Source of the DNA: Cheilinus undulatus
Taxonomy: Eukaryota > Chordata > Actinopteri > Labriformes > Labridae
Length of the DNA: 64,000 nt
Direction: 5' to 3'
NCBI RefSeq assembly: GCF_018320785.1
Contig: NC_054872.1
Span: 20,852,769-20,916,768, forward strand
Shown: piece by piece, positions 758 through 22,645 of the stretch
Numbering within the stretch: the stretch's first letter is position 1
Layout of the letters: each line of letters opens with the position of its first letter
Notes under the pieces: model-generated
What the model saw: only the letters and a program-made list of their open reading frames with translations
What the model was told of the DNA's origin: nothing
The model's database searches: none
Position numbers and translations under genes: made by a program

Positions 758-1292
758 TAGGGCTCGGTGATTGTGGCAAAAATCTAAATTGCAATTAATT
801 AAAATTTTACATCGATTACAGTTCATCAATGATTATCCCAACCCTGACTTGGTTTGTACTGTAAATATTTATATAATTTTGAAACAAATAGCTGAAAGGA
901 ACATGCAATTGCAAGTTGCTTGAAAAAGTAGAAATTAACAACTTGTATTTCTTGCTAACAAAATGAAGATTTTTTTTTTTTTTACTATTGTATTGAAAGT
1001 AGATATATATAATTTGGTTGCTTGCATAGCATAATCCATTCTGATTTTTAATGGACTGGATGGGAGAGTGTCATGTGACTACTTATTCTTCTTTTGGGTG
1101 TCTGGCAGACTACATGCCTTGCAACACCTGGCTGCATATCACATGACTACACAGCCAGTATGGTGTGTCTAGAGGGATGGTGTATTAGAAGAGGAAGAAT
1201 CACAAGGGAAAATAATTGACACAACACATTTATGTCAGTTAGAGACTCTAAATGTCAGTTTTGATCATTTTTCAATTAATTGCCCAGCGCTA
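758..1292. mobile_element. hAT-type MITE with 8-bp target duplication
   Basis: Ends TAGGGCTCGGTGA... and ...TTGCCCAGCGCTA are imperfect inverted repeats of the common fish type GGGCTGGGCGATTA. They are flanked by ATCTGCAG (750-757) and ATCTGCTG (1293-1300), a 7/8 match and the size typical of hAT. It contains no transposase reading frame. Confidence 0.65.
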
Positions 1293-1392
1293 ATCTGCTG
1301 CATTTTTTGCAGGTAGCAATAAAAGGAAAATTAAGGGTAACAAAACCTTCATCTGGCAAATATTTATTTCTACAGTTTTACTTGCCGATCTC

Positions 1393-1475
1393 AGTGCCGG
1401 GATGGTGGTGGAGAAGCTGGATGTGCTGGTGGCTACTGCTGGAGGTATCTGTGGGCCACCCTGAGATGTGGGGAC
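1393..1475 (-). other. Possible exon of the left-edge gene
   Basis: On the minus strand TCTTCTTTCAG precedes an open Pro/Ser/Thr-rich stretch (VPTSQGGPQIPPAVATSTSS...) that ends GGCAA|GTAAAAC. Both splice signals are good. The phase does not directly match the HTH exon downstream, so an intermediate exon would be needed or the piece is unrelated. Confidence 0.25.
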
Positions 1476-2303
1476 CTGAAAGAAGAGCCCATACTTTAAA
1501 TATCAGCCTGAGTGGCAAAAGACACTCAGCCTTGTCTGTCTTTGTTACTATGCCTTAATCAATCAATAACTGTGTTGTGCATGCTGATGAACACTTGTCT
1601 AAATTTTCATCCAATAGTTGAAGGTGAAGTAGTTTGATGTGACTTAACCTGGATGTTTCATTAATTTTGAATCTAATCTCACTCTGCAATGGGCAGTGGT
1701 TTACACGGATAAAGGTTTTCAGTGTTCTGCCCTCTGCAGTTAGACTCAGAGGGACCAGGTCTGGCTGTTCTGGAAAATTTCATCATTGTAATACAGGTTA
1801 TATTCCCGTAGCCACTGTGGTTGTCCTTACCTGGACAATCAGACTGTCCCCACCTGTCTCTCTCCCTGCCTGTTGCACTCTCACACATCCTCATTCCAGT
1901 TACATGTAGCTAATATTATTCAATGGTTACATTAGTGGGACTAAAACAAAACTTTTTGTTAATTTCGGGCCCTGACAGGAAGACAAAGAGAGCTAGTGAC
2001 GAAGATAAGCTAACGCACTTAGCCAGGTAAAGCTGCAGCTCAGACCTCTCTTCACCTCTATTTTTAGGAGACTACAGGCTGCAGCTAAACAGTCTTAAAT
2101 GATGCCCGTTACAATGCCCCACTACAAAACATTATCTCTCATCATGCACTCATTCATATGCTACAAAGGAAAGATTTAACTGGCGCTACAAAACGCTAGC
2201 CTATCCGCCAGCTAGCTAGGTCGCATCCGCGCCACTCACACACACAGTAAGGTTAGCTTTGGTATAAAGATGGAGAAATAAGTTAAGACTGTAACCACTT
2301 TAC

Positions 2304-2470
2304 TTCCCGTTAATGATGTTGACGATGCGGGTTGAACTACCCCTTGAAGAGCAGCCCGCACACCCGCTATCACCGCCCGTTCAATGTCCCCTATCGGGAG
2401 GGAAGCAGACATGTTTGTATCTGCTTGCCGGTCAGTGGTAGGGGCGTGGCTTTGCGCCTGTTGGAGCAAC
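2304..2470 (-). other. CpG-rich patch with possible first exon
   Basis: The stretch 2160-2480 is rich in CpG compared with its surroundings. On the minus strand an ATG at 2412 opens MSASLPIGDIERAVIAGVRA... for 36 codons and ends ACGGGAA|GTAAAG, a good donor. It could be the start of the left-edge integrase-like gene. The function of the encoded peptide is not recognised. Confidence 0.35.
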
Positions 2471-2479
2471 GTTCAAGGG

Positions 2480-3130
2480 GCGTGGAATGACATCATTTGC
2501 ATTTTTCCTAAATATTTAGCTTTACATTTAGCTTTTCTCGATATATATAGAAACTTTCTGATGGTAGTTGCAATGTCAATAACACAGCAGCCTGCAGTCA
2601 CACCTGGCTCTTAAAGGGAATGAGAGCTGACACTGCCGATTGGTCTGATTCAGTTTGACCACAGAGCACACCGATTTTTATAATTAATGGACACAGTTTA
2701 ACTTCTCTGTGCCCCAACTTTACTTGACTGGGCACCAAGTTTGTTTGCCATGTTACTTGTAAAATATATGCTCTTACATGCTCCAGTTGGAGGACCTACT
2801 CTTTAACACATCTATGTTATACATCTCAGTAATATCTTTATCCAGCTTCAGTAGTATAACAATTGTTTTTGAACCTCTTTACCCCCCCAAAAAAACCAAA
2901 AACATACAAGTATTTCTTTAACCATAAAAAATTAAGCCATTGTTACACAAGTAACTTGCATTTTGCATGAGTGAACTTTATTTGAAGCAGCAGTACATTA
3001 ACTTGGCCCCATACATTGTAGTATAATCACCAGCATTGCAAAGAACACCTCATTTAACTGTTTAACACCAACAGGAAAATTGTTACATTAATTTTAGGGT
3101 TAATTATAGTGGACACAGACCAACAGTTTT
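2480..3130. other. Intergenic, nothing recognised
   Basis: AT-rich sequence between the CpG patch and the lectin gene 3' end. Contains short C and A runs near 2883-2895. No gene, hairpin or known repeat seen. Confidence 0.5.
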
Positions 3131-3135
3131 GATAA

Positions 3136-3141
3136 TTTATT
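3136..3141 (-). terminator. Candidate polyadenylation signal of the lectin gene
   Basis: AATAAA on the minus strand, about 90 nt after the stop codon at 3231. A second AATAAA at 2983-2978 is an alternative. Choice between them cannot be made from sequence alone. Confidence 0.5.
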
Positions 3142-3230
3142 AAAGGAAAAGATGCAATAGCAGGCAAATATTAGCTTTAAAATTGCAAACTGGTGCTCAA
3201 TATTATCAAGACTAACAAACTGTTTGAGAC

Positions 3231-3872
3231 TCAGATGCAAACATATTCCTCTGAATCATTCTCAGTTTCAATCCCAGTCACTTTCACCTCACACAGACTC
3301 AGGGACTGAACTTTGTCTGGGATCACAATGTTGATGTACTGGCCTTTCATTCCATCACACAAGAAAGTTTTGGACTCCCCTGGTTCGAGTGTTGAGATCA
3401 CAGTGCATCTGAAGAATACAAGAAGATCTACCATTAGGGTACAAAAGTATCTCATTCTATGGGTTCTTATATTTTAATGTGTAGAATGGTTAATAAAGGA
3501 CAAAAAAATCTGTTCTGTAAGGTCTTCTTCTGCAATTTTATAACCAAGACAGATTGAACATTATTTTTTGTAGATTTCTGTAAAGCTACCTGGGATTAAC
3601 GTTGCCATTGTAATCAAGTGAATCTCCAATGCGAATCTCCGCACCATTGATCCTCTTGTGGCAACAATCTCTTCTGTTGGTGATGGTGACAGAGTTGATC
3701 TCATATCTCTTGCCCAGGTCTAATCTCCACCAAGGATTTTCTTCTTGTTTAGTGAGTGTACAAGAGCGCTGAGCCCACTTGCTATCACTGTTCCCATCAA
3801 TGGCCCTTTCAGGGACACCTTTCCTATGAATGGATGACTGAGTAGCGGTCCCTCCTCTAGCAATATTTGGAG
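3231..3872 (-). CDS. F-type lectin domain 14, diverged C-terminal domain (exons 3590-3872 and 3231-3408)
   Basis: Exon A is 283 bp (four codons shorter than array copies) and exon B 178 bp including stop. The join gives [18 protein letters not shown]. The loop is kept (RRDCCHKR), but the motif's His is replaced by Leu (CTLTKQ), 26 residues before the loop, so classical fucose binding is doubtful. The end, [11 protein letters not shown], supplies an extra Cys close to the terminus that array domains lack, possibly for chain linkage. The clear divergence from the array marks it as the ancestral downstream half of a smaller gene. Confidence 0.85.
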
Positions 3873-6800
3873 CTGGACAAAGATATAAAATGTCTTGTTG
3901 AGAATTGTTTGTAGAAGGCACAGAGGTATTCAAACATGAGGCACCATGAAACAGGTGATAATGTGATTGAGTCTTCACTGACATTGGATGCTTCTGTGTT
4001 CAATATTATATATACTTCAAGTTACCAGTTGAAGGAGTGTCTTGTGTTGGTTCACCAGTCACCTCCACCTCACACAGAGTCAGGAATTCTTTTCTGTCTG
4101 GAATCACAACGTTGATGTACCGTCCCACCATTCCATTACATTTGAAGGTTTTGGTCTCCCCTGGTCCCATCTTGTCAATCTTAACACATCTGCAAACATG
4201 CGGTACAGAGAAAATGCATTACTTACATGAAAAGCTTTATTTAGGTTCTCTGGAGCTGTTCACACATCAATCTCATGGCTTAATGGGGTCACTAATTCTG
4301 GCCACATGACAATTTTTCTTCTTTATGGGCACAAAAGAAGGGAAGCCTTTATTAGATTGTAATGTTTCTACTTCTCAGCTAGACATGATTCCTTCCATTG
4401 GTCCATTTCAGTTCTACCACTGGTGCTTATGTCTGTGGTGCCCACTTGCTGCAGTTTAACCTTGTGGTTTCTTTAGAAAGTAATTGATCAGGCAGAAGTT
4501 CATGGATCCACAGACCACACATGTGGCCAGAGCGTGGGATCAGATCCCAAGGCTCAGGGATCAACTGTGGTCTGTTTAGTCTGATACTTTTAAAGCAGTA
4601 CTCATACAGCAGGTTGTAGAGGTGTAAAACTTTGTTGACCTACATGGGATTGGCATTGCCATTGTCATCAAGTGAATTCCCAATGTGGATCTCCGCACCC
4701 TTGATCCTCTCGTGGCAGCAATCTCCTCTGTTGGTGATGGTGACAGTGTTGATCTTGTACTCCCTCTTGAGGTCCAATCTCCACCATGGAACATTGTCTT
4801 TTTTTGTGTGGGTACAGAGGCCCTTTGTCATGATGGTTTCCAGAATTCCATCTATAGCCCTTTCAGGACCTGCAAGTCCATGGGAAGTCTTTCTAGTGGA
4901 TGACTGAGTAGCTGTCCCTCCTCTAGCAATATTTGGAGCTGGACAAAGATATAAAATGTCTTGTTGAGAATTGTTTGTAGAAGGCACAGAGGTATTCAAA
5001 CATGAGGCACCATGAAACAGGTGATAATGTGATTGAGTCTTCACTGACATTGGATGCTTCTGTGTTCAATATTATATATACTTCAAGTTACCAGTTGAAG
5101 GAGTGTCTTGTGTTGGTTCACCAGTCACCTCCACCTCACACAGAGTCAGGAATTCTTTTCTGTCTGGAATCACAACGTTGATGTACCGTCCCACCATTCC
5201 ATTACATTTGAAGGTTTTGGTCTCCTGGTCCCATCTTGTCAATCTTAACACATCTGCAAACATGCGGTACAGAGAAAATGCATTACTTACATGAAAAGCT
5301 TTATTTAGTTTCTCTGGAGCTGTTCACACATCAATCTCATGGCTTAATGGGGTCACTAATTCTGGCCAAATGACAATTTTTCTTCTTTATGGGCACAAAA
5401 GAAGGGAAGCCTTTATTAGATTGTAATGTTTCTACTTCTCAGCCAGACATGATTCCTTCCATTGGTCCATTTCAGTTCTACCACTGGTGCTTATGTCTGT
5501 GGTGCCCACTTGCTGCAGTTTAACCTTGTGGTTTCTTTAGAAAGTAATTGATCAGGCAGAAGTTCATGGATCCACAGACCACACATGTGGCCAGAGCGTG
5601 GGATCAGATCCCAAGGCTCAGGGATCAACTGTGGTCTGTTTAGTCTGATACTTTTAAAGCAGTACTCATACAGCAGGTTGTAGAGGTGTAAAACTTTGTT
5701 GACCTACATGGGATTGGCATTGCCATTGTCATCAAGTGAATTCCCAATGTGGATCTCCGCACCCTTGATCCTCTCGTGGCAGCAATCTCCTCTGTTGGTG
5801 ATGGTGACAGTGTTGATCTTGTACTCCTCTTGAGGTCCAATCTCCACCATGGAACATTGTCTTTTTGTGTGGGTACAGAGGCCCTTTGTCATGATGGTTT
5901 CCAGAATTCCATCTATAGCCCTTTCAGGACCTGCAAGTCCATGGGAAGTCTTTCTAGTGGATGACTGAGTAGCTGTCCCTCCTCTAGCAATATTTGGAGC
6001 TGGACAAAGATATAAAATGTCTTGTTGAGAATTGTTTGTAGAAGGCACAGAGGTATTCAAACATGAGGCACCATGAAACAGGTGATAATGTGATTGAGTC
6101 TTCACTGACATTGGATGCTTCTGTGTTCAATATTATATATACTTCAAGTTACCAGTTGAAGGAGTGTCTTGTGTTGGTTCACCAGTCACCTCCACCTCAC
6201 ACAGAGTCAGGAATTCTTTTCTGTCTGGAATCACAACGTTGATGTACCGTCCCACCATTCCATTACATTTGAAGGTTTTGGTCTCCCTGGTCCCATCTTG
6301 TCAATCTTAACACATCTGCAAACATGCGGTACAGAGAAAATGCATTACTTACATGAAAAGCTTTATTTAGTTTCTCTGGAGCTGTTCACACATCAATCTC
6401 ATGGCTTAATGGGGTCACTAATTCTGGCCAAATGACAATTTTTCTTCTTTATGGGCACAAAAGAAGGGAAGCCTTTATTAGATTGTAATGTTTCTACTTC
6501 TCAGCTAGACATGATTCCTTCCATTGGTCCATTTCAGTTCTACCACTGGTGCTTATGTCTGTGGTGCCCACTTGCTGCAGTTTAACCTTGTGGTTTCTTT
6601 AGAAAGTAATTGATCAGGCAGAAGTTCATGGATCCACAGACCACACATGTGGCCAGAGCGTGGGATCAGATCCCAAGGCTCAGGGATCAACTGTGGTCTG
6701 TTTAGTCTGATACTTTTAAAGCAGTACTCATACAGCAGGTTGTAGAGGTGTAAAACTTTGTTGACCTACATGGGATTGGCATTGCCATTGTCATCAAGTG

Positions 6801-9800
6801 AATTCCCAATGTGGATCTCCGCACCCTTGATCCTCTCGTGGCAGCAATCTCCTCTGTTGGTGATGGTGACAGTGTTGATCTTGTACTCCCTCTTGAGGTC
6901 CAATCTCCACCATGGAACATTGTCTTTTTTTGTGTGGGTACAGAGGCCCTTTGTCATGATGGTTTCCAGAATTCCATCTATAGCCCTTTCAGGACCTGCA
7001 AGTCCATGGGAAGTCTTTCTAGTGGATGACTGAGTAGCTGTCCCTCCTCTAGCAATATTTGGAGCTGGACAAAGATATAAAATGTCTTGTTGAGAATTGT
7101 TTGTAGAAGGCACAGAGGTATTCAAACATGAGGCACCATGAAACAGGTGATAATGTGATTGAGTCTTCACTGACATTGGATGCTTCTGTGTTCAATATTA
7201 TATATACTTCAAGTTACCAGTTGAAGGAGTGTCTTGTGTTGGTTCACCAGTCACCTCCACCTCACACAGAGTCAGGAATTCTTTTCTGTCTGGAATCACA
7301 ACGTTGATGTACCGTCCCACCATTCCATTACATTTGAAGGTTTTGGTCTCCCCTGGTCCCATCTTGTCAATCTTAACACATCTGCAAACATGCGGTACAG
7401 AGAAAATGCATTACTTACATGAAAAGCTTTATTTAGGTTCTCTGGAGCTGTTCACACATCAATCTCATGGCTTAATGGGGTCACTAATTCTGGCCACATG
7501 ACAATTTTTCTTCTTTATGGGCACAAAAGAAGGGAAGCCTTTATTAGATTGTAATGTTTCTACTTCTCAGCCAGACATGATTCCTTCCATTGGTCCATTT
7601 CAGTTCTACCACTGGTGCTTATGTCTGTGGTGCCCACTTGCTGCAGTTTAACCTTGTGGTTTCTTTAGAAAGTAATTGATCAGGCAGAAGTTCATGGATC
7701 CACAGACCACACATGTGGCCAGAGCGTGGGATCAGATCCCAAGGCTCAGGGATCAACTGTGGTCTGTTTAGTCTGATACTTTTAAAGCAGTACTCATACA
7801 GCAGGTTGTAGAGGTGTAAAACTTTGTTGACCTACATGGGATTGGCATTGCCATTGTCATCAAGTGAATTCCCAATGTGGATCTCCGCACCCTTGATCCT
7901 CTCGTGGCAGCAATCTCCTCTGTTGGTGATGGTGACAGTGTTGATCTTGTACTCCCTCTTGAGGTCCAATCTCCACCATGGAACATTGTCTTTTTTTGTG
8001 TGGGTACAGAGGCCCTTTGTCATGATGGTTTCCAGAATTCCATCTATAGCCCTTTCAGGACCTGCAAGTCCATGGGAAGTCTTTCTAGTGGATGACTGAG
8101 TAGCTGTCCCTCCTCTAGCAATATTTGGAGCTGGACAAAGATATAAAATGTCTTGTTGAGAATTGTTTGTAGAAGGCACAGAGGTATTCAAACATGAGGC
8201 ACCATGAAACAGGTGATAATGTGATTGAGTCTTCACTGACATTGGATGCTTCTGTGTTCAATATTATATATACTTCAAGTTACCAGTTGAAGGAGTGTCT
8301 TGTGTTGGTTCACCAGTCACCTCCACCTCACACAGAGTCAGGAATTCTTTTCTGTCTGGAATCACAACGTTGATGTACCGTCCCACCATTCCATTACATT
8401 TGAAGGTTTTGGTCTCCCCTGGTCCCATCTTGTCAATCTTAACACATCTGCAAACATGCGGTACAGAGAAAATGCATTACTTACATGAAAAGCTTTATTT
8501 AGTTTCTCTGGAGCTGTTCACACATCAATCTCATGGCTTAATGGGGTCACTAATTCTGGCCAAATGACAATTTTTCTTCTTTATGGGCACAAAAGAAGGG
8601 AAGCCTTTATTAGACTGTAATGTTTCTACTTCTCAGCCAGACATGATTCCTTCCATTGGTACATTTCAGTTCTACCACTGGTGCTTATGTCTGTGGTGCC
8701 CACTTGCTGCAGTTTAACCTTGTGGTTTCTTTAGAAAGTAATTGATCAGGCAGAAGTTCATGGATCCACAGACCACACATGTGGCCAGAGCGTGGGATCA
8801 GATCCCAAGGCTCAGGGATCAACTGTGGTCTGTTTAGTCTGATACTTTTAAAGCAGTACTCATACAGCAGGTTGTAGAGGTGTAAAACTTTGTTGACCTA
8901 CATGGGATTGGCATTGCCATTGTCATCAAGTGAATTCCCAATGTGGATCTCCGCACTTGATCCTCTCGTGGCAGCAATCTCCTCTGTTGGTGATGGTGAC
9001 AGTGTTGATCTTGTACTCCCTCTTGAGGTCCAATCTCCACCATGGAACATTGTCTTTTTTTGTGTGGGTACAGAGGCCCTTTGTCATGATGGTTTCCAGA
9101 ATTCCATCTATAGCCCTTTCAGGACCTGCAAGTCCATGGGAAGTCTTTCTAGTGGATGACTGAGTAGCTGTCCCTCCTCTAGCAATATTTGGAGCTGGAC
9201 AAAGATATAAAATGTCTTGTTGAGAATTGTTTGTAGAAGGCACAGAGGTATTCAAACATGAGGCACCATGAAACAGGTGATAATGTGATTGAGTCTTCAC
9301 TGACATTGGATGCTTCTGTGTTCAATATTATATATACTTCAAGTTACCAGTTGAAGGAGTGTCTTGTGTTGGTTCACCAGTCACCTCCACCTCACACAGA
9401 GTCAGGAATTCTTTTCTGTCTGGAATCACAACGTTGATGTACCGTCCCACCATTCCATTACATTTGAAGGTTTTGGTCTCCCCTGGTCCCATCTTGTCAA
9501 TCTTAACACATCTGCAAACATGCGGTACAGAGAAAATGCATTACTTACATGAAAAGCTTTATTTAGTTTCTCTGGAGCTGTTCACACATCAATCTCATGG
9601 CTTAATGGGGTCACTAATTCTGGCCAAATGACAATTTTTCTTCTTTATGGGCACAAAAGAAGGGAAGCCTTTATTAGATTGTAATGTTTCTACTTCTCAG
9701 CCAGACATGATTCCTTCCATTGGTCCATTTCAGTTCTACCACTGGTGCTTATGTCTGTGGTGCCCACTTGCTGCAGTTTAACCTTGTGGTTTCTTTAGAA

Positions 9801-12800
9801 AGTAATTGATCAGGCAGAAGTTCATGGATCCACAGACCACACATGTGGCCAGAGCGTGGGATCAGATCCCAAGGCTCAGGGATCAACTGTGGTCTGTTTA
9901 GTCTGATACTTTTAAAGCAGTACTCATACAGCAGGTTGTAGAGGTGTAAAACTTTGTTGACCTACATGGGATTGGCATTGCCATTGTCATCAAGTGAATT
10001 CCCAATGTGGATCTCCGCACCCTTGATCCTCTCGTGGCAGCAATCTCCTCTGTTGGTGATGGTGACAGTGTTGATCTTGTACTCCTCTCTGAGGTCCAAT
10101 CTCCACCATGGAACATTGTCTTTTAGTGTGTGTACCGAGGCCCTTTGTCATGATGGTTTCCAGAATTCCATCTATAGCCCTTTCAGGACCTGCAAGTCCA
10201 TGGGAAGTCTTTCTAGTGGATGACTGAGTAGCTGTCCCTCCTCTAGCAATATTTGGAGCTGGACAAAGATATAAAATGTCTTGTTGAGAATTGTTTGTAG
10301 AAGGCACAGAGGTATTCAAACATGAGGCACCATGAAACAGGTGATAATGTGATTGAGTCTTCACTGACATTGGATGCTTCTGTGTTCAATATTATATATA
10401 CTTCAAGTTACCAGTTGAAGGAGTGTCTTGTGTTGGTTCACCAGTCACCTCCACCTCACACAGAGTCAGGAATTCTTTTCTGTCTGGAATCACAACGTTG
10501 ATGTACCGTCCCACCATTCCATTACATTTGAAGGTTTTGGTCTCCTGGTCCCATCTTGTCAATCTTAACACATCTGCAAACATGCGGTACAGAGAAAATG
10601 CATTACTTACATGAAAAGCTTTATTTAGTTTCTCTGGAGCTGTTCACACATCAATCTCATGGCTTAATGGGGTCACTAATTCTGGCCAAATGACAATTTT
10701 TCTTCTTTATGGGCACAAAAGAAGGGAAGCCTTTATTAGATTGTAATGTTTCTACTTCTCAGCCAGACATGATTCCTTCCATTGGTCCATTTCAGTTCTA
10801 CCACTGGTGCTTATGTCTGTGGTGCCCACTTGCTGCAGTTTAACCTTGTGGTTTCTTTAGAAAGTAATTGATCAGGCAGAAGTTCATGGATCCACAGACC
10901 ACACATGTGGCCAGAGCGTGGGATCAGATCCCAAGGCTCAGGGATCAACTGTGGTCTGTTTAGTCTGATACTTTTAAAGCAGTACTCATACAGCAGGTTG
11001 TAGAGGTGTAAAACTTTGTTGACCTACATGGGATTGGCATTGCCATTGTCATCAAGTGAATTCCCAATGTGGATCTCCGCACTTGATCCTCTCGTGGCAG
11101 CAATCTCCTCTGTTGGTGATGGTGACAGTGTTGATCTTGTACTCCTCTTGAGGTCCAATCTCCACCATGGAACATTGTCTTTTTTTGTGTGGGTACAGAG
11201 GCCCTTTGTCATGATGGTTTCCAGAATTCCATCTATAGCCCTTTCAGGACCTGCAAGTCCATGGGAAGTCTTTCTAGTGGATGACTGAGTAGCTGTCCCT
11301 CCTCTAGCAATATTTGGAGCTGGACAAAGATATAAAATGTCTTGTTGAGAATTGTTTGTAGAAGGCACAGAGGTATTCAAACATGAGGCACCATGAAACA
11401 GGTGATAATGTGATTGAGTCTTCACTGACATTGGATGCTTCTGTGTTCAATATTATATATACTTCAAGTTACCAGTTGAAGGAGTGTCTTGTGTTGGTTC
11501 ACCAGTCACCTCCACCTCACACAGAGTCAGGAATTCTTTTCTGTCTGGAATCACAACGTTGATGTACCGTCCCACCATTCCATTACATTTGAAGGTTTTG
11601 GTCTCCCTGGTCCCATCTTGTCAATCTTAACACATCTGCAAACATGCGGTACAGAGAAAATGCATTACTTACATGAAAAGCTTTATTTAGGTTTCTCTGG
11701 AGCTGTTCACACATCAATCTCATGGCTTAATGGGGTCACTAATTCTGGCCACATGACAATTTTTCTTCTTTATGGGCACAAAAGAAGGGAAGCCTTTATT
11801 AGATTGTAATGTTTCTACTTCTCAGCTAGACATGATTCCTTCCATTGGTCCATTTCAGTTCTACCACTGGTGCTTATGTCTGTGGTGCCCACTTGCTGCA
11901 GTTTAACCTTGTGGTTTCTTTAGAAAGTAATTGATCAGGCAGAAGTTCATGGATCCACGGACCACACATGTGGCCAGAGCGTGGGATCAGATCCCAAGGC
12001 TCAGGATCAACTGTGGTCTGTTTAGTCTGATACTTTTAAAGCAGTACTCATACAGCAGGTTGTAGAGGTGTAAAACTTTGTTGACCTACATGGGATTGGC
12101 ATTGCCATTGTCATCAAGTGAATACCCAATGTGGAAATCCGAACCCTTGATCCTCTCGAGTAAGAAAACTCCACTGTTGGTTATGGTGACAGTGTTTATA
12201 TTGTACTCCTCTTGAGGTCCCAATCTCCACCATGGAACATTGTCTTTTTGTGTGTGGTACAGAGGCCCTTTGTCATGATGGTTTCCAGAATTCCATCTAT
12301 AGCCCTTTCAGGACCTGCAAGTCCATGGGAAGTCTTTCTAGTGGATGACTGAGTAGCTGTCCCTCCTCTAGCAATATTTGGAGCTGGACAAAGATATAAA
12401 ATGTCTTGTTGAGAATTGTTTGTAGAAGGCACAGAGGTATTCAAACATGAGGCACCATGAAACAGGTGATAATGTGATTGAGTCTTCACTGACATTGGAT
12501 GCTTCTGTGTTCAATATTATATATACTTCAAGTTACCAGTTGAAGGAGTGTCTTGTGTTGGTTCACCAGTCACCTCCTCACACAGAGTCAGGAATTCTTT
12601 TCTGTCTGGAATCACAACGTTGATGTACCGTCCCACCATTCCATTACATTTGAAGGTTTTGGTCTCCCCTGGTCCCATCTTGTCAATCTTAACACATCTG
12701 CAAACATGCGGTACAGAGAAAATGCATTACTTACATGAAAAGCTTTATTTAGGTTCTCTGGAGCTGTTCACACATCAATCTCATGGCTTAATGGGGTCAC

Positions 12801-15800
12801 TAATTCTGGCCACATGACAATTTTTCTTCTTTATGGGCACAAAAGAAGGGAAGCCTTTATTAGATTGTAATGTTTCTACTTCTCAGCCAGACATGATTCC
12901 TTCCATTGGTACATTTCAGTTCTACCACTGGTGCTTATGTCTGTGGTGCCCACTTGCTGCAGTTTAACCTTGTGGTTTCTTTAGAAAGTAATTGATCAGG
13001 CAGAAGTTCATGGATCCACGGACCACACATGTGGCCAGAGCGTGGGATCAGATCCCAAGGCTCAGGATCAACTGTGGTCTGTTTAGTCTGATACTTTTAA
13101 AGCAGTACTCATACAGCAGGTTGTAGAGGTGTAAAACTTTGTTGACCTACATGGGATTGGCATTGCCATTGTCATCAAGTGAATTCCCAATGTGGATCTC
13201 CGCACCCTTGATCCTCTCGTGGCAGCAATCTCCTCTGTTGGTGATGGTGACAGTGTTGATCTTGTACTCCCTCTTGAGGCCCAATCTCCACCACGGAACA
13301 TTGTCTTTTTTTGTGTGGGTACAGAGGCCCTTTGTCATGATGGTTTCCAGAATTCCATCTATAGCCCTTTCAGGACCTGCAAGTCCATGGGAAGTCTTTC
13401 TAGTGGATGACTGAGTAGCTGTCCCTCCTCTAGCAATATTTGGAGCTGGACAAAGATATAAAATGTCTTGTTGAGAATTGTTTGTAGAAGGCACAGAGGT
13501 ATTCAAACATGAGGCACCATGAAACAGGTGATAATGTGATTGAGTCTTCACTGACATTGGATGCTTCTGTGTTCAATATTATATATACTTCAAGTTACCA
13601 GTTGAAGGAGTGTCTTGTGTTGGTTCACCAGTCACCTCCACCTCACACAGAGTCAGGAATTCTTTTCTGTCTGGAATCACAACGTTGATGTACCGTCCCA
13701 CCATTCCATTACATTTGAAGGTTTTGGTCTCCCTGGTCCCATCTTGTCAATCTTAACACATCTGCAAACATGCGGTACAGAGAAAATGCATTACTTACAT
13801 GAAAAGCTTTATTTAGTTTCTCTGGAGCTGTTCACACATCAATCTCATGGCTTAATGGGGTCACTAATTCTGGCCAAATGACAATTTTTCTTCTTTATGG
13901 GCACAAAAGAAGGGAAGCCTTTATTAGATTGTAATGTTTCTACTTCTCAGCCAGACATGATTCCTTCCATTGGTCCATTTCAGTTCTACCACTGGTGCTT
14001 ATGTCTGTGGTGCCCACTTGCTGCAGTTTAACCTTGTGGTTTCTTTAGAAAGTAATTGATCAGGCAGAAGTTCATGGATCCACAGACCACACATGTGGCC
14101 AGAGCGTGGGATCAGATCCCAAGGCTCAGGGATCAACTGTGGTCTGTTTAGTCTGATACTTTTAAAGCAGTACTCATACAGCAGGTTGTAGAGGTGTAAA
14201 ACTTTGTTGACCTACATGGGATTGGCATTGCCATTGTCATCAAGTGAATTCCCAATGTGGATCTCCGCACCCTTGATCCTCTCGTGGCAGCAATCTCCTC
14301 TGTTGGTGATGGTGACAGTGTTGATCTTGTACTCCCTCTTGAGGCCCAATCTCCACCACGGAACATTGTCTTTTTTTGTGTGGGTACAGAGGCCCTTTGT
14401 CATGATGGTTTCCAGAATTCCATCTATAGCCCTTTCAGGACCTGCAAGTCCATGGGAAGTCTTTCTAGTGGATGACTGAGTAGCTGTCCCTCCTCTAGCA
14501 ATATTTGGAGCTGGACAAAGATATAAAATGTCTTGTTGAGAATTGTTTGTAGAAGGCACAGAGGTATTCAAACATGAGGCACCATGAAACAGGTGATAAT
14601 GTGATTGAGTCTTCACTGACATTGGATGCTTCTGTGTTCAATATTATATATACTTCAAGTTACCAGTTGAAGGAGTGTCTTGTGTTGGTTCACCAGTCAC
14701 CTCCACCTCACACAGAGTCAGGAATTCTTTTCTGTCTGGAATCACAACGTTGATGTACCGTCCCACCATTCCATTACATTTGAAGGTTTTGGTCTCCCCT
14801 GGTCCCATCTTGTCAATCTTAACACATCTGCAAACATGCGGTACAGAGAAAATGCATTACTTACATGAAAAGCTTTATTTAGTTTCTCTGGAGCTGTTCA
14901 CACATCAATCTCATGGCTTAATGGGGTCACTAATTCTGGCCAAATGACAATTTTTCTTCTTTATGGGCACAAAAGAAGGAAGCCTTTATTAGATTGTAAT
15001 GTTTCTACTTCTCAGCCAGACATGATTCCTTCCATTGGTCCATTTCAGTTCTACCACTGGTGCTTATGTCTGTGGTGCCCACTTGCTGCAGTTTAACCTT
15101 GTGGTTTCTTTAGAAAGTAATTGATCAGGCAGAAGTTCATGGATCCACAGACCACACATGTGGCCAGAGCGTGGGATCAGATCCCAAGGCTCAGGGATCA
15201 ACTGTGGTCTGTTTAGTCTGATACTTTTAAAGCAGTACTCATACAGCAGGTTGTAGAGGTGTAAAACTTTGTTGACCTACATGGGATTGGCATTGCCATT
15301 GTCATCAAGTGAATTCCCAATGTGGATCTCCGCACCCTTGATCCTCTCGTGGCAGCAATCTCCTCTGTTGGTGATGGTGACAGTGTTGATCTTGTACTCC
15401 TCTTGAGGTCCCAATCTCCACCATGGAACATTGTCTTTTTTTGTGTGGGTACAGAGGCCCTTTGTCATGATGGTTTCCAGAATTCCATCTATAGCCCTTT
15501 CAGGACCTGCAAGTCCATGGGAAGTCTTTCTAGTGGATGACTGAGTAGCTGTCCCTCCTCTAGCAATATTTGGAGCTGGACAAAGATATAAAATGTCTTG
15601 TTGAGAATTGTTTGTAGAAGGCACAGAGGTATTCAAACATGAGGCACCATGAAACAGGTGATAATGTGATTGAGTCTTCACTGACATTGGATGCTTCTGT
15701 GTTCAATATTATATATACTTCAAGTTACCAGTTGAAGGAGTGTCTTGTGTTGGTTCACCAGTCACCTCCACCTCACACAGAGTCAGGAATTCTTTTCTGT

Positions 15801-18800
15801 CTGGAATCACAACGTTGATGTACCGTCCCACCATTCCATTACATTTGAAGGTTTTGGTCTCCCCTGGTCCCATCTTGTCAATCTTAACACATCTGCAAAC
15901 ATGCGGTACAGAGAAAATGCATTACTTACATGAAAAGCTTTATTTAGGTTCTCTGGAGCTGTTCACACATCAATCTCATGGCTTAATGGGGTCACTAATT
16001 CTGGCCACATGACAATTTTTCTTCTTTATGGGCACAAAAGAAGGGAAGCCTTTATTAGATTGTAATGTTTCTACTTCTCAGCTAAACATGATTCCTTCCA
16101 TTGGTACATTTCAGTTCTACCACTGGTGCTTATGTCTGTGGTGCCCACTTGCTGCAGTTTAACCTTGTGGTTTCTTTAGAAAGTAATTGATCAGGCAGAA
16201 GTTCATGGATCCACAGACCACACATGTGGCCAGAGCGTGGGATCAGATCCCAAGGCTCAGGGATCAACTGTGGTCTGTTTAGTCTGATACTTTTAAAGCA
16301 GTACTCATACAGCAGGTTGTAGAGGTGTAAAACTTTGTTGACCTACATGGGATTGGCATTGCCATTGTCATCAAGTGAATTCCCAATGTGGATCTCCGCA
16401 CCCTTGATCCTCTCGTGGCAGCAATCTCCTCTGTTGGTGATGGTGACAGTGTTGATCTTGTACTCCCTCTTGAGGTCCAATCTCCACCATGGAACATTGT
16501 CTTTTTTTGTGTGGGTACAGAGGCCCTTTGTCATGATGGTTTCCAGAATTCCATCTATAGCCCTTTCAGGACCTGCAAGTCCATGGGAAGTCTTTCTAGT
16601 GGATGACTGAGTAGCTGTCCCTCCTCTAGCAATATTTGGAGCTGGACAAAGATATAAAATGTCTTGTTGAGAATTGTTTGTAGAAGGCACAGAGGTATTC
16701 AAACATGAGGCACCATGAAACAGGTGATAATGTGATTGAGTCTTCACTGACATTGGATGCTTCTGTGTTCAATATTATATATACTTCAAGTTACCAGTTG
16801 AAGGAGTGTCTTGTGTTGGTTCACCAGTCACCTCCACCTCACACAGAGTCAGGAATTCTTTTCTGTCTGGAATCACAACGTTGATGTACCGTCCCACCAT
16901 TCCATTACATTTGAAGGTTTTGGTCTCCCCTGGTCCCATCTTGTCAATCTTAACACATCTGCAAACATGCGGTACAGAGAAAATGCATTACTTACATGAA
17001 AAGCTTTATTTAGGTTCTCTGGAGCTGTTCACACATCAATCTCATGGCTTAATGGGGTCACTAATTCTGGCCACATGACAATTTTTCTTCTTTATGGGCA
17101 CAAAAGAAGGGAAGCCTTTATTAGATTGTAATGTTTCTACTTCTCAGCTAGACATGATTCCTTCCATTGGTACATTTCAGTTCTACCACTGGTGCTTATG
17201 TCTGTGGTGCCCACTTGCTGCAGTTTAACCTTGTGGTTTCTTTAGAAAGTAATTGATCAGGCAGAAGTTCATGGATCCACGGACCACACATGTGGCCAGA
17301 GCGTGGGATCAGATCCCAAGGCTCAGGGATCAACTGTGGTCTGTTTAGTCTGATACTTTTAAAGCAGTACTCATACAGCAGGTTGTAGAGGTGTAAAACT
17401 TTGTTGACCTACATGGGATTGGCATTGCCATTGTCATCAAGTGAATTCCCAATGTGGATCTCCGCACCCTTGATCCTCTCGTGGCAGCAATCTCCTCTGT
17501 TGGTGATGGTGACAGTGTTGATCTTGTACTCCCTCTTGAGGTCCAATCTCCACCACGGAACATTGTCTTTTTTTGTGTGGGTACAGAGGCCCTTTGTCAT
17601 GATGGTTTCCAGAATTCCATCTATAGCCCTTTCAGGGCCTGCAAGTCCATGGGAAGTCTTTCTAGTGGATGACTGAGTAGCGGTCCCTCCTCTAGCAATA
17701 TTTGGAGCTGGACAAAGATATTAAATGTTTGATGAAGATGGTTTGGAAGGCATAGAGGTATTAATAATGACGTTCAGAATAATTTAACTTTCCACGTTTT
17801 AAAAGTTATAGTTTCACTATGTATGTCCTCACTACTATGCATCATCTGTTGATTATCTCATTTTTATGTTACCTAAATTCATATAAGATTCAGGGGAACT
17901 GTTTTTTTTTTTTGTTTGTTTTTTTTAATAGAAGTTTCAAATATGTTTTTATTTACACACCTTGCATTTCCCTGGACTTCTTTTCATGCATTTCACCAAT
18001 TTCTTCAGGCATCTTCTCAGGCTTTTTACCAGGCATCTTATCTGGCATTTTACCAGGCATTTTATCTGGCATTTCACCAGGCATCTTATCCGGCATTTTA
18101 CCAGGCATCTTCTCCGGCATTTTACCAGGCATCTTATCAGCCATCTTTTCCGGCATTTTAACGGGCATCTTCTCCGGCATTTTACCAGGCATCTTATCAG
18201 CCATCTTTTCCGGCATTATATCAGGCATCTTCTCCGCCATTTTACCAGGCATCTTGTCAGCCATTTTTTCCGGCATTTTATCAGGCATCTTATCTGGCAT
18301 TTTACCATGCATCTTATCTGGCATTTTACCAGGCATCTGATCAGCCATCTTTTCCGGCATTTTATCAGGCATCTTATCTGGCATTTTACCATGCATCTTA
18401 TCTGGCATTTTACCAGGCATCTGATCAGCCATCTTTTCCGGCATCTTATCAGCCATCTCATCTGTCATTTTGCCAGGCGTCTTATCTGGCATCTTCTCCG
18501 GCATTTTACCAGGCATCTTATCAGCCATCTTTTCCGGCATTATATCAGGCATCTTCTCCGGCATTTTACCAGGCATCTTGTCAGCCATTTTTTCCGGCAT
18601 TTTATCAGGCATCTTATCTGGCATTTTACCAGGCATCTTATCAGCCATCTCATCTGTCATTTTGCCAGGCGTCTTATCTGGCATCTTATCAGGCATTTTA
18701 CCAGGCATTGTACCCTGCATTGGGTCATGATTCATCGGGTCATGTTGCATCGGGCCATGTTGCTTTGAGCCATGTGGCATTGGACCATGTTTCATTTGGC

Positions 18801-18889
18801 TGAGTTTCATCGAGCCATGTTTGATTGTTCCATCACCATCAGTCAATTCAAGGACAGCCAACAATACAAAGACCACAGCAGTAGCCATT
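3231..18889 (-). CDS. Giant secreted multi-domain F-type lectin gene (29 coding exons)
   Basis: Gene model built by eye on the minus strand. The signal-peptide exon (18889-17961) ends G|GTGTGT in phase 1 and joins the first lectin exon after a TTTGTCCAG acceptor, reading ..[11 protein letters not shown]. Fourteen F-type lectin domains follow, each from exon A (acceptor TTTGTCCAG, donor CCCAT|GTAGG) and exon B (acceptor TTTGCAG, donor ACTG|GTAAC). A-to-B introns are phase 2 and about 454 bp; B-to-A introns are phase 1 and about 153 bp. The final B exon ends with TGA at 3233-3231. F-type lectins are secreted fucose-recognition proteins of fish innate immunity; intact domains here carry the family motif H-x26-R-x-D-x4-R and the adjacent Cys pair. 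Described fish members usually have one to a few domains, so fourteen is exceptional. Full-length exons would give about 2,450 residues. Several exons carry small indels (see single domains), so this assembly does not encode one uninterrupted product. Confidence 0.82.
4026..4938 (-). CDS. F-type lectin domain 13 (exons 4644-4938 and 4026-4189)
   Basis: Last copy of the homogeneous array. Both exons are full length and open, with H-x26-R-x-D-x4-R and CC present. The donor after ACTG and the 153-bp intron to the terminal domain are the same as between all other domains, so the reading continues into domain 14. Confidence 0.88.
5092..5999 (-). pseudogene. F-type lectin domain 12, indel-damaged (exons 5708-5999 and 5092-5253)
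   Basis: Exon A is 292 bp: two T lost from a T7 run and one C from CCCTCTTG. The total is in frame, but the WWRLDLK strand between the indels is scrambled. The loop RGDCCHER is read correctly afterwards, while its spacing from His becomes 25. Exon B is 162 bp (CC lost from the CCCC run), so it is frameshifted. Confidence 0.75.
6153..7064 (-). CDS. F-type lectin domain 11 (exons 6770-7064 and 6153-6315)
   Basis: Exon A is clean with an intact motif. Exon B is 163 bp because the CCCC run after GGTCT has only three Cs, shifting the frame early in the exon. The same lesion occurs in domains 4 and 6. Confidence 0.78.
7218..8130 (-). CDS. F-type lectin domain 10 (exons 7836-8130 and 7218-7381)
   Basis: Both exons are full length, open and carry the complete fucose motif and CC pair. 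The sequence equals the array consensus. Exon B reads [19 protein letters not shown] and later [14 protein letters not shown], supplying the remaining Cys residues of the fold. Confidence 0.88.
8284..9194 (-). pseudogene. F-type lectin domain 9, frameshifted (exons 8902-9194 and 8284-8447)
   Basis: Exon A is 293 bp because CC is missing in CGCACCCTTG near its 3' end. The His and the complete RGDCCHER loop are read before the shift. Only the last ~20 codons before the donor are misread, and exon B (full length) would then be out of frame. The identical CC loss is seen in domain 7. Confidence 0.78.
9348..10258 (-). pseudogene. F-type lectin domain 8, indel-damaged (exons 9966-10258 and 9348-9511)
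   Basis: Exon A is 293 bp. Changes cluster at 10083-10137 (TCCTCTCT for TCCCTCTT, TTTTAGTGTGTGTACCG for TTTTTTTGTGTGGGTACAG), shifting the frame just before the WWRLDL strand. Exon B is clean. The underlying nucleotide sequence still encodes the RGDCCHER loop in the original frame. Confidence 0.75.
10412..11319 (-). pseudogene. F-type lectin domain 7, indel-damaged (exons 11028-11319 and 10412-10573)
   Basis: Exon A is 292 bp: CGCACTTG in place of CGCACCCTTG (two bases lost), plus one base lost in the CCCTCTTG run. The total is in frame, but the stretch between the indels is read in another frame, so the RGDCC loop is lost and the reading recovers at AEIHIG. Exon B is 162 bp (CC lost from a CCCC run), which shifts the frame. 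All lesions are at short homopolymers. Confidence 0.75.
11473..12383 (-). pseudogene. F-type lectin domain 6, degenerate (exons 12090-12383 and 11473-11635)
   Basis: This is the most divergent array copy. Within 12121-12210 about a dozen substitutions cluster, while flanking sequence is nearly identical to other copies. They turn the binding loop RGDCCHER into SGVFLLER, removing the first Arg, the Asp and both Cys. Exon A is 294 bp and exon B 163 bp, so both are also out of frame. It cannot bind fucose in the family's known way, if it is made at all. Confidence 0.75.
12537..13445 (-). CDS. F-type lectin domain 5 (exons 13151-13445 and 12537-12697)
   Basis: Exon A is clean with the fucose motif and the same Asp-to-Gly change as domain 4. 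Exon B is 161 bp because one CCA/CCT repeat is missing in the codons for CEVEVTG. This is an in-frame loss of one residue in a C-terminal beta strand. The domain is therefore open throughout. Confidence 0.82.
13599..14510 (-). CDS. F-type lectin domain 4 (exons 14216-14510 and 13599-13761)
   Basis: Exon A is full length with the fucose motif intact and an Asp-to-Gly change ([11 protein letters not shown]) shared only with domain 5. Exon B is 163 bp: one C is missing from the CCCC run after GGTCT, which shifts the frame after about six codons. Either this copy is broken or the run length was miscalled. Confidence 0.78.
14664..15575 (-). CDS. F-type lectin domain 3 (exons 15281-15575 and 14664-14827)
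   Basis: Exon lengths are normal, but exon A has two compensating single-base indels around the CTCTTGAGG run, changing [11 protein letters not shown] to [11 protein letters not shown]. The binding loop RGDCCHER and the upstream His are kept at the correct spacing. Exon B is clean. The change could be real, but it sits at the same run where other copies show length errors. Confidence 0.8.
15729..16641 (-). CDS. F-type lectin domain 2 (exons 16347-16641 and 15729-15892)
   Basis: Both exons are full length and in frame (295 and 164 bp). The H-x26-R-x-D-x4-R motif and the CC pair are intact, as is the WWRLDL strand before the binding loop. The intron between the exons carries the GGTTCTC/CCACATG haplotype and a private CAGCTAAAC variant. 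This is one of the clean reference copies. Confidence 0.88.
16795..17707 (-). CDS. F-type lectin domain 1 (exons 17413-17707 and 16795-16958)
   Basis: Both exons have full length (295 and 164 bp) and are open. The fucose motif is complete: His in CTHTKK, then 26 residues, then RGDCCHER. The CC pair corresponds to the vicinal disulfide known from eel agglutinin. The short intron upstream differs from the array version. The GCGGTCCC variant near the acceptor is shared only with the terminal domain, marking this as an edge copy of the array. Confidence 0.85.
17961..18889 (-). CDS. First coding exon: signal peptide, His/Met-rich segment and KMPx repeat
   Basis: The exon begins AATGGCT directly after a long pyrimidine tract and CTACAG, so the start codon is 18888-18886 and a 5' UTR exon must lie upstream. 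The product begins [15 protein letters not shown], a hydrophobic secretion signal, then TDGDG. Next is a segment with repeated HGPM/HDPM motifs (about residues 24-55), then about 240 residues of tetrapeptides K-M-P-x with x = D, G, E or A. It contains no Cys and almost no aromatic residues, so a flexible or extended stalk is likely. The exon ends ATG CAA G|GTGTGT in phase 1, matching the lectin exon. The 12-bp periodicity leaves other frames and the opposite strand open too; those readings are shadows. The splice fit and signal peptide make me confident that this belongs to the lectin gene. Confidence 0.8.
17995..18716 (-). repeat. 12-bp coding minisatellite (KMPx tract) with higher-order copies
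   Basis: On the plus strand the unit reads approximately GGCATTTTACCA or GGCATCTTATCC. It is imperfect and keeps the coding frame over the whole tract. Longer blocks are duplicated inside it: 18297-18360 is repeated at 18381-18444 (84 bp apart), and the block near 18125-18260 recurs near 18485-18610. This implies slippage and unequal exchange at two scales. Lengths probably vary between alleles. Confidence 0.85.
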
Positions 18890-21865: not shown

Positions 21866-22645
21866 CTCCTTCCAGCTCTACTTTGCTGGGTTCATGAGTG
21901 ATGCCTAGGCAACTCCATCGTGAAGTACGCAGACGATACGACAGTGGTTGGGCTTATCTCAGGGGGAGATGAATCTGCATACAGGGATGAGGTCAAAAAA
22001 TTGTCATCATGTTGCAGCATCAACAACCTGGTCCCTAACACAACTAAGACTAAAGAAATAATAGTGGACTTCAGGAGATACAGATCTGACCCTCAGCCCA
22101 TACAAATTAATGGGGACTGTGTGGAGAGGGTCTGGGACTTCAAGTTCCTGGGCCTGCACCTGAATGATGACCTAACCTGGAAAACTAACACCACAGCGCT
22201 GATCAAAAAGGCACAGCAGCGACTCCACTTCCTGAGGGTCCTGAAGAGCAACGCCCTGGCCAAGGAGCTGCTGGTGTCCTTTCACAGATGCTCCATTGAA
22301 AGTGTACTGGCATACTGCATCCCAGTGTGGTTCTCCAGCTGTACTGCTCAAGAGAAGACAGCTCTCCAGAGGGTCATCAACACAGCACAGAAAATCACAG
22401 GCTGTGCTCTCCTCTCCTTAGAGGAGCTGTTCAGGTCCCACTGCCACAGGAAGGCCCTGGGCATCACCTGTTCCAACTGCTACCCTCAGGAAGATGGTTC
22501 AGGTCAATAAGAACAAAAACTAACAGACTGAAAAACAGCACATATCCCAGAGCAGTTTCAATATTAAATGAGAAACCACTCGAGCACTAAATGGTACTGA
22601 AAAAAAAATTTGTCAATAAAAATGAATCTGATTCTGATTAAATAA
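21866..22645 (+). pseudogene. 5'-truncated LINE: reverse transcriptase C-terminal part
   Basis: Open for 196 codons from 21920: KYADDTTVVGLISGG (YADD active site at 21926-21937), then KTKEIIVDFRR, FKFLGLHLNDDLTWKTNT, AQQRLHFLRVL and LQRVINTAQKITG, the conserved end of L2/CR1/Rex-type polymerases. A frameshift occurs near 22500 (reading continues as SIRTKTNRLKNS, then ...YPRAVSILNE). The 3' end is TCTGATTCTGATT, a short tandem tail. Upstream RT and endonuclease domains are missing. Confidence 0.85.

Follow-up and report, generated by a model that had tools for sequence, protein, structure and literature searches.

Analysis of a 64,000-nucleotide window of the genome of the wrasse Cheilinus undulatus (contig NC_054872.1, positions 20,852,769 to 20,916,768; C8:20852769-20916768 in our genome searches, which covered 1,173,462,691 bases in 46 contigs) uncovered a minus-strand gene that probably encodes a single secreted F-type lectin (FTL), composed of a Met-rich stalk, a series of recently multiplied and near-identical F-type lectin domain (FTLD) cassettes, and a divergent last domain. 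An earlier note on this DNA had placed the gene at window positions 3231..18889, which proved correct (the ATG lies at 18888 and the stop ends at 3231), and its reading of a multi-FTLD lectin that is secreted and starts with a long Met-rich segment is supported. The signal exon, tetrapeptide repeat, and 14 two-exon domains with splice sites on one strand were all recovered as described there, but the compatible phases did not hold throughout, as 7 of the 14 domains are frameshifted as assembled. The near-identity of 13 of the 14 units is a point absent from that note.

The ATG opens a coding exon of 928 nt (309 codons plus 1 nt) that ends in phase 1 at a GTGTGT donor. Its N-terminus is hydrophobic and signal-like, as judged by eye, and homologous to the signal exon of a nearby sister gene. 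A polypyrimidine tract and CAG acceptor lie directly 5′ of the ATG, as they also do in the sister gene, and a non-coding first exon upstream is therefore likely. Exons located by fixed motifs comprise 14 of 14 exons A and 14 of 14 exons B, all on the minus strand; an AG acceptor precedes every one of them, a GT donor follows all 14 exons A and the 13 exons B that have one, and exon B of domain 14 ends in the stop. Cassettes consist of an exon A of 283-295 nt and an exon B of 161-178 nt (for domain 14, measured between 3408 and the stop at 3231). Because intact cassettes begin exon A in phase 1 and end exon B in phase 1, with an internal intron in phase 2, they are symmetric. The stop TGA at 3233-3231 is followed ~90 nt later by an AATAAA signal. 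No second signal exon was found within the array and no further FTLD exon elsewhere in the 64-kb window. Several separate short genes within the array were considered and rejected on sequence, as the array has only a single signal exon and a single terminal exon with a stop, and the reading as one gene proposed earlier is supported.

Domain 1 (D1) matched the solved F-type lectins FBP32 (3cqo, E 8.8e-76) and Anguilla agglutinin (AAA; 1k12, E 6.5e-37). The domain search for F-type lectins that had been suggested as a check was run on D1 and domain 14 (D14), and both scored above the cut-off for Pfam PF22633 and PF00754, so that the resemblance is not due to chance. Exons A and B meet in the codon preceding the Cys aligned with AAA Cys124, and the exons of MsaFBP32 are described in a review as split near AAA Glu123-Cys124 (PMC5712786). 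In a residue alignment to 1k12 of window domains 1, 3, 5, 10, and 14, the D1-type domains (D1, D3, D5, and D10) retain H52, R79, D81, and R86 as well as the C82-C83 pair. The fucose triad at positions 52/79/86 is thus present as HX26RXDX4R in the four D1-type domains aligned, which carry the motif H-X(24-26)-R-X-D-X4-R/K, while D14 lacks it (H52L). The spacer of this motif is printed as X24 (PMC5712786), and is X26 in AAA itself (H52, R79) and in D1.

The 13 units, measured from one exon A to the next, are 1,061-1,066 bp each, and the other 12 share 97.8-99.8% identity with unit 2, so that they constitute near-identical tandem coding units, as in a coding variable number tandem repeat (VNTR) of the LPA type. 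The near-identical stretch extends into the start of exon A of domain 14, yet that domain is divergent. Intron substitutions at 7 sites resolve 9 haplotypes among the 13 units, one of which is common to 5 of them, and because these 9 haplotypes are defined by substitutions only, the array is not one unit duplicated by the assembler.

The sister gene, LOC121514334, lies ~20 kb past the 3′ end of the array gene, outside the window and ~16-26 kb from its low end. It shares with the array gene its strand, a homologous signal exon (60.7% identity over 28 aa), the phase-1 cassette joint, and FTLDs of two exons each, which show 63-75% identity to D1 at the exon level. Unlike the array gene, it has 5 domains, no stalk, and no near-identical array, its adjacent domains being 68-82% identical. 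Its annotated protein matches the FTLD exons read from the DNA at that place. As a sister with the same layout is annotated as one 5-FTLD protein, it supports the reading of the array as a single gene.

In order to place the array among other lectins, 5.8 billion proteins were searched for FTLs, and the best 120 of 229 matches (lengths ~340-1,081) together with 54 longer sequences (~1,075-3,420) were retained, giving 174 sequences. At least 14 FTLD matches were found in 5 of the 174, all predicted proteins: Scomber scombrus (LOC133983374, 20), a flatworm WSC protein (19), Sander lucioperca (LOC116058018, 18), Parambassis ranga (LOC114448621, 16), and Xenopus tropicalis (14). Eleginops maclovinus (LOC134875783) has 12, and all four fish proteins, like that of Xenopus tropicalis, are unnamed. 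The earlier note's limit of one to a few domains for fish F-type lectins is not supported, given these 12-20-FTLD predictions. Like the wrasse gene, the giant teleost FTLs are chains of FTLDs, near-identical inside in Sander and Eleginops (mean identity within the array 97% over 18 domains and 99% over 12), with one or both ends more divergent. The 18 Sander domains (P0122) carry Val (17) or Ile (1) at position 52 in place of the fucose-binding His, a non-canonical site that has itself been amplified. No published description of giant FTL arrays was found among the leading, mostly unopened results of a limited literature collection.

A tree of 87 domains combined those longer than 125 residues from 12 chosen proteins of the 174 with 6 of the 14 window domains, other FTL genes of those species being left out. 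The domains of each of the 11 species form their own clade, with support of at least 95/91; window and sister domains form one clade (99/95), and D14 sits on a long branch. Such species-wise grouping is as expected from repeated lineage-specific amplification.

The stalk sets the wrasse gene apart from these proteins. A Met-rich segment (at least 6 Met in any 40 residues) was found in none of the 174, some of which are without their N-terminus. The layout, which the earlier note regarded as undescribed and proposed to look for in related fish, has unnamed predicted precedents in its FTLD array and domain number (Scomber, Sander, Parambassis, and Eleginops) and, among the 174, none in its stalk. 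Past residue 20, the sequence encoded by the exon contains 64 Met, 58 Lys, 50 Pro, 29 Asp, 24 Gly, and 21 Glu, with no Cys and no aromatic residues. Its 57 twelve-nt units comprise 22 distinct sequences, among which 31 of 49 deviations fall at codon position 3, and 9 of 21 one-step pairs of distinct 12-mers are synonymous (16.4% expected, p 0.004, although the pairs are not independent). Given this third-position clustering and synonymous excess, the stalk looks constrained as protein. When the wrasse genome was searched with the stalk exon (128 of 3,244 candidates scored), one full-strength match (100%, E 2.9e-182) was recovered among 155; the other matches listed show 10-42% identity, none over the first 30 residues, and are taken as low-complexity resemblance. 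A protein-database search (lengths ~423-1,346, the best 7,995 candidates by shared words scored) returned 17 matches, none with an FTLD Pfam label, which we treat as probably compositional. A literature search for Met-rich stalk lectins, judged by title and abstract, found nothing relevant.

Comparison with the sister gene suggests how the stalk may have formed. The sister signal exon ends in CATG followed by GTAAAA, and its annotated protein reads ...TRGHAPNI; the likely matching place in the array gene reads ...KHGSM and leads on into a repeat of 15 nt, followed by one of 12 nt. A blastn alignment of the two signal exons extends no further than the initial part of the signal region. From this one comparison we infer loss of a sister-type donor followed by repeat growth, by which the coding part of the signal exon would have extended ~285 residues past the sister's splice point, first as a 15-nt and then as a 12-nt minisatellite encoding (KMPx)n. 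That the exon is an unrelated gene or a chance open reading frame is unlikely, considering the homology of its N-terminus to the sister signal exon, a donor phase that fits FTLD exon A, and the third-position variation. With Met at every fourth position, the stalk could also serve as a Cu(I) binder or oxidant scavenger.

Repeat spacers of other kinds were observed in two of the proteins retrieved. In another wrasse, Xyrichtys novacula (P0131), repeated EPATDAPE linkers separate FTLDs, perhaps through independent minisatellite growth at the end of exon B. In Xenopus laevis (P0133), residues 611-1062 form a ~450-residue EEDPKN(A/M/T)TGG repeat between FTLDs with many possible N-glycosylation sites.

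We propose that a symmetric phase 1-1 cassette of ~1,066 bp and two exons was multiplied to 13 copies via unequal crossing-over and held near-identical, with the divergent domain 14 closing the protein. As the cassettes are phase 1-1, unequal crossing-over would change their number without breaking the frame, and cassette number may be expected to vary among individuals. The flexible stalk, free of Cys and aromatics, would keep the identical carbohydrate-binding domains at a distance from a partner. Through domain repetition the protein would gain avidity for repeated glycans, of the fucose type or related to it, allowing cross-linking of cells or microbes; cross-linking by oligomeric fish FTLs has been proposed (PMC5712786). 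More broadly, and tentatively, it is possible that percomorph FTL genes act as coding VNTRs in which each lineage re-amplifies one cassette with its own site variant, the wrasse adding a KMPx spacer via a minisatellite, so that lectin valency and specificity would shift through unequal crossing-over.

Several observations weigh against one fully translated, fucose-binding protein. By exon length and translation, domains 1, 2, 3, 5, 10, 13, and 14 are in frame, while domains 4, 6, 7, 8, 9, 11, and 12 are frameshifted, and one translated protein with all 14 domains is thus putative. Read literally, the frame meets its first stop after 894 residues, inside domain 4, having passed through the stalk and three complete domains, and if the indels are real the array would be largely untranslated past that domain. 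Copy number depends on one assembly of near-identical repeats. The top identity to the array gene among the matches listed is 70%, and no annotated product was seen within the length limits of the search. In the binding site, the D1-type domains carry N40I, F45M, and S49L, losing two calcium-site side chains and the aromatic at 45, and D14 keeps N40 and S49 but has H52L. Given these changes, fucose binding of the canonical, calcium-supported kind cannot be taken for granted. The cation motif (h2DGx with a small hydrophilic x, and Ser49 or a substitute able to coordinate) is lost in the D1-type domains, which read AIDGI with S49L, and D14 reads AIDGN with S49 kept. Replacements of metal ligands are frequent in F-type lectins (PMC5712786), and the lost motif therefore weakens canonical calcium-supported binding and not family membership. 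Fucose binding by the amplified domains through an altered site is plausible.

If the array were genuine but decayed, the expressed protein would consist of the stalk and three FTLDs and end within a fourth, the remainder being an untranslated tandem tail. Besides the frameshifts themselves, two deletions shared by units 7 and 12 with zero substitutions between them, and an insertion and a deletion shared by units 3 and 6, resemble inherited mutations, and indel events are denser per base in exons (19) than in introns (4, p 0.0002). Counted per G/C run, however, the difference between exons and introns is not significant (14/156 vs 3/91, p 0.12), and G/C runs account for 17 of the 19 deletion events, with 17 of 247 G/C-run instances hit compared with 1 of 468 A/T-run instances (p 1e-7). 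The same runs are struck in many units at differing lengths (position 778 in 5 units and position 175 in 5), and pairwise alignment to unit 2 counts 27 deleted bases against 4 inserted over the other units. This recount replaced a multiple alignment of units (24 deleted, 1 inserted) that masked compensated pairs as substitutions; tests on the earlier alignment agreed (G/C vs A/T runs p 3e-6, exon vs intron G/C runs p 0.27). Splice sites are intact throughout the array, which also fits consensus error better than decay. As the indels are for the most part bases lost from short runs of G or C, the pattern suggests that the frameshifts are probably consensus errors in near-identical repeats, and the truncated protein is accordingly considered unlikely. 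Quite improbable is an assembly artefact in which a smaller true array, or two alleles placed end to end, was expanded. Near-identical units with a noisy consensus, and the one intron haplotype found in 5 of 13 units, could be accommodated by such an artefact, but the 9 substitution-only haplotypes require at least 9 distinct units (or, as we infer, ~5 per allele if two were merged), the window contains no N, and other fish genomes, themselves assemblies too, are predicted to carry arrays of 12-20 FTLDs, with near-identical domains in Sander and Eleginops.

The other alternatives concern the use of the array, and both draw on oyster sperm bindin, which by analogy is the closest FTL parallel. 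Like the wrasse gene, bindin has tandem FTLDs with a mid-domain intron, and it shows recombination-driven diversity and a variable repeat number; it differs in having 1-5 repeats and in being a mollusc gamete protein, and the passages on it do not mention a KMPx stalk (PMC5712786). Exon skipping could yield a family of shorter lectins from one gene, the 14-domain form being rare or absent. Skipping of whole phase 1-1 cassettes would preserve the frame, and alternative splicing can set repeat number in bindin (PMC5712786); we consider this account somewhat doubtful. A gamete-recognition protein, with repeated FTLDs on sperm or egg and a rapidly changing repeat number and binding site, would match the layout of bindin, in which 1-5 tandem FTLDs recombine in the mid-domain intron (PMC5712786), as well as the different binding-site variants amplified in several species. 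The teleost FTL roles described in passages of the same review are in innate immunity, however, and fast array turnover is equally expected of immune lectins, making a gamete role improbable. For the secreted multi-FTLD lectin that we favour, a function as an agglutinin or as a mucus or egg-coat protein is putative. The closest genomic parallel, again by analogy, is human LPA kringle IV-2, an unrelated domain for which population variation is shown, whereas the wrasse array is known from one assembly.

Table 1 Features of the array gene (window positions) and the sister gene (C8 positions).
Feature	Position	Strand	Remarks
Signal peptide and KMPx stalk coding exon	17961..18888	-	Acceptor directly 5′ of the ATG, donor GTGTGT; signal peptide homologous to sister signal exon
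KMPx minisatellite in signal exon	18006..18709	-	Twelve-nt units; higher-order 24/60/84 nt
15-nt minisatellite (HGPMx pentapeptides), signal-peptide end of stalk	18716..18822	-	
FTLD 1	16795..17707	-	A 17707-17413, B 16958-16795; in frame
FTLD 2	15729..16641	-	A 16641-16347, B 15892-15729; in frame
FTLD 3	14664..15575	-	A 15575-15281, B 14827-14664; overall in frame; shifted over a short stretch bounded by a one-base insertion and a one-base deletion
FTLD 4	13599..14510	-	A 14510-14216, B 13761-13599; frame lost in exon B, first stop of literal frame
FTLD 5	12537..13445	-	A 13445-13151, B 12697-12537; in frame with 3-nt deletion
FTLD 6	11473..12383	-	A 12383-12090, B 11635-11473; out of frame; most substituted unit
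FTLD 7	10412..11319	-	A 11319-11028, B 10573-10412; out of frame
FTLD 8	9348..10258	-	A 10258-9966, B 9511-9348; out of frame
FTLD 9	8284..9194	-	A 9194-8902, B 8447-8284; out of frame
FTLD 10	7218..8130	-	A 8130-7836, B 7381-7218; in frame
FTLD 11	6153..7064	-	A 7064-6770, B 6315-6153; out of frame
FTLD 12	5092..5999	-	A 5999-5708, B 5253-5092; out of frame
FTLD 13	4026..4938	-	A 4938-4644, B 4189-4026; in frame
FTLD 14, terminal, divergent	3231..3872	-	A 3872-3590, B 3408-3231; His52 to Leu
AATAAA polyadenylation signal	3136..3141	-	
Sister gene LOC121514334 (P0003)	C8:20827256-20836340	same strand as array	5 FTLDs, own signal exon; annotated as one protein of 778 aa

Across the whole genome, Pfam PF22633 gave at least 61 matches. 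A second locus at C8:46.58-46.76 Mb (46575001-46775000) contains 11 N-type and 11 C-type exon-A matches and appears to hold about 11 tandem two-domain (binary) F-type lectin genes, one of them inverted (46716406-46724379). Several of its N-type domains read CSS, not CTH, around the fucose-binding His, as judged by eye. MsaFBP32 of striped bass and other binary FTLs belong to the same family as the array gene, and the intron position of the array FTLDs is as described for MsaFBP32 (PMC5712786); unlike the array gene, they have two dissimilar domains and not an array. Elsewhere in the window, open frames at 21902-22510 (+) and 25774-27174 (-) resemble, by eye, remnants of long interspersed nuclear element reverse transcriptases.

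Taken from sequence, the domain count of the wrasse gene has unnamed precedents, and the stalk appears to be new, with no precedent among the sequences searched. Array genes in draft fish genomes may appear broken, as consensus errors collect in near-identical copies. If the array is translated, its product would be among the most multivalent F-type lectins predicted, with a type of spacer not seen in the other FTLs retrieved, and, judging from the species-wise clustering of FTLDs, teleosts may adjust the valency of their lectins by tandem cassette number.

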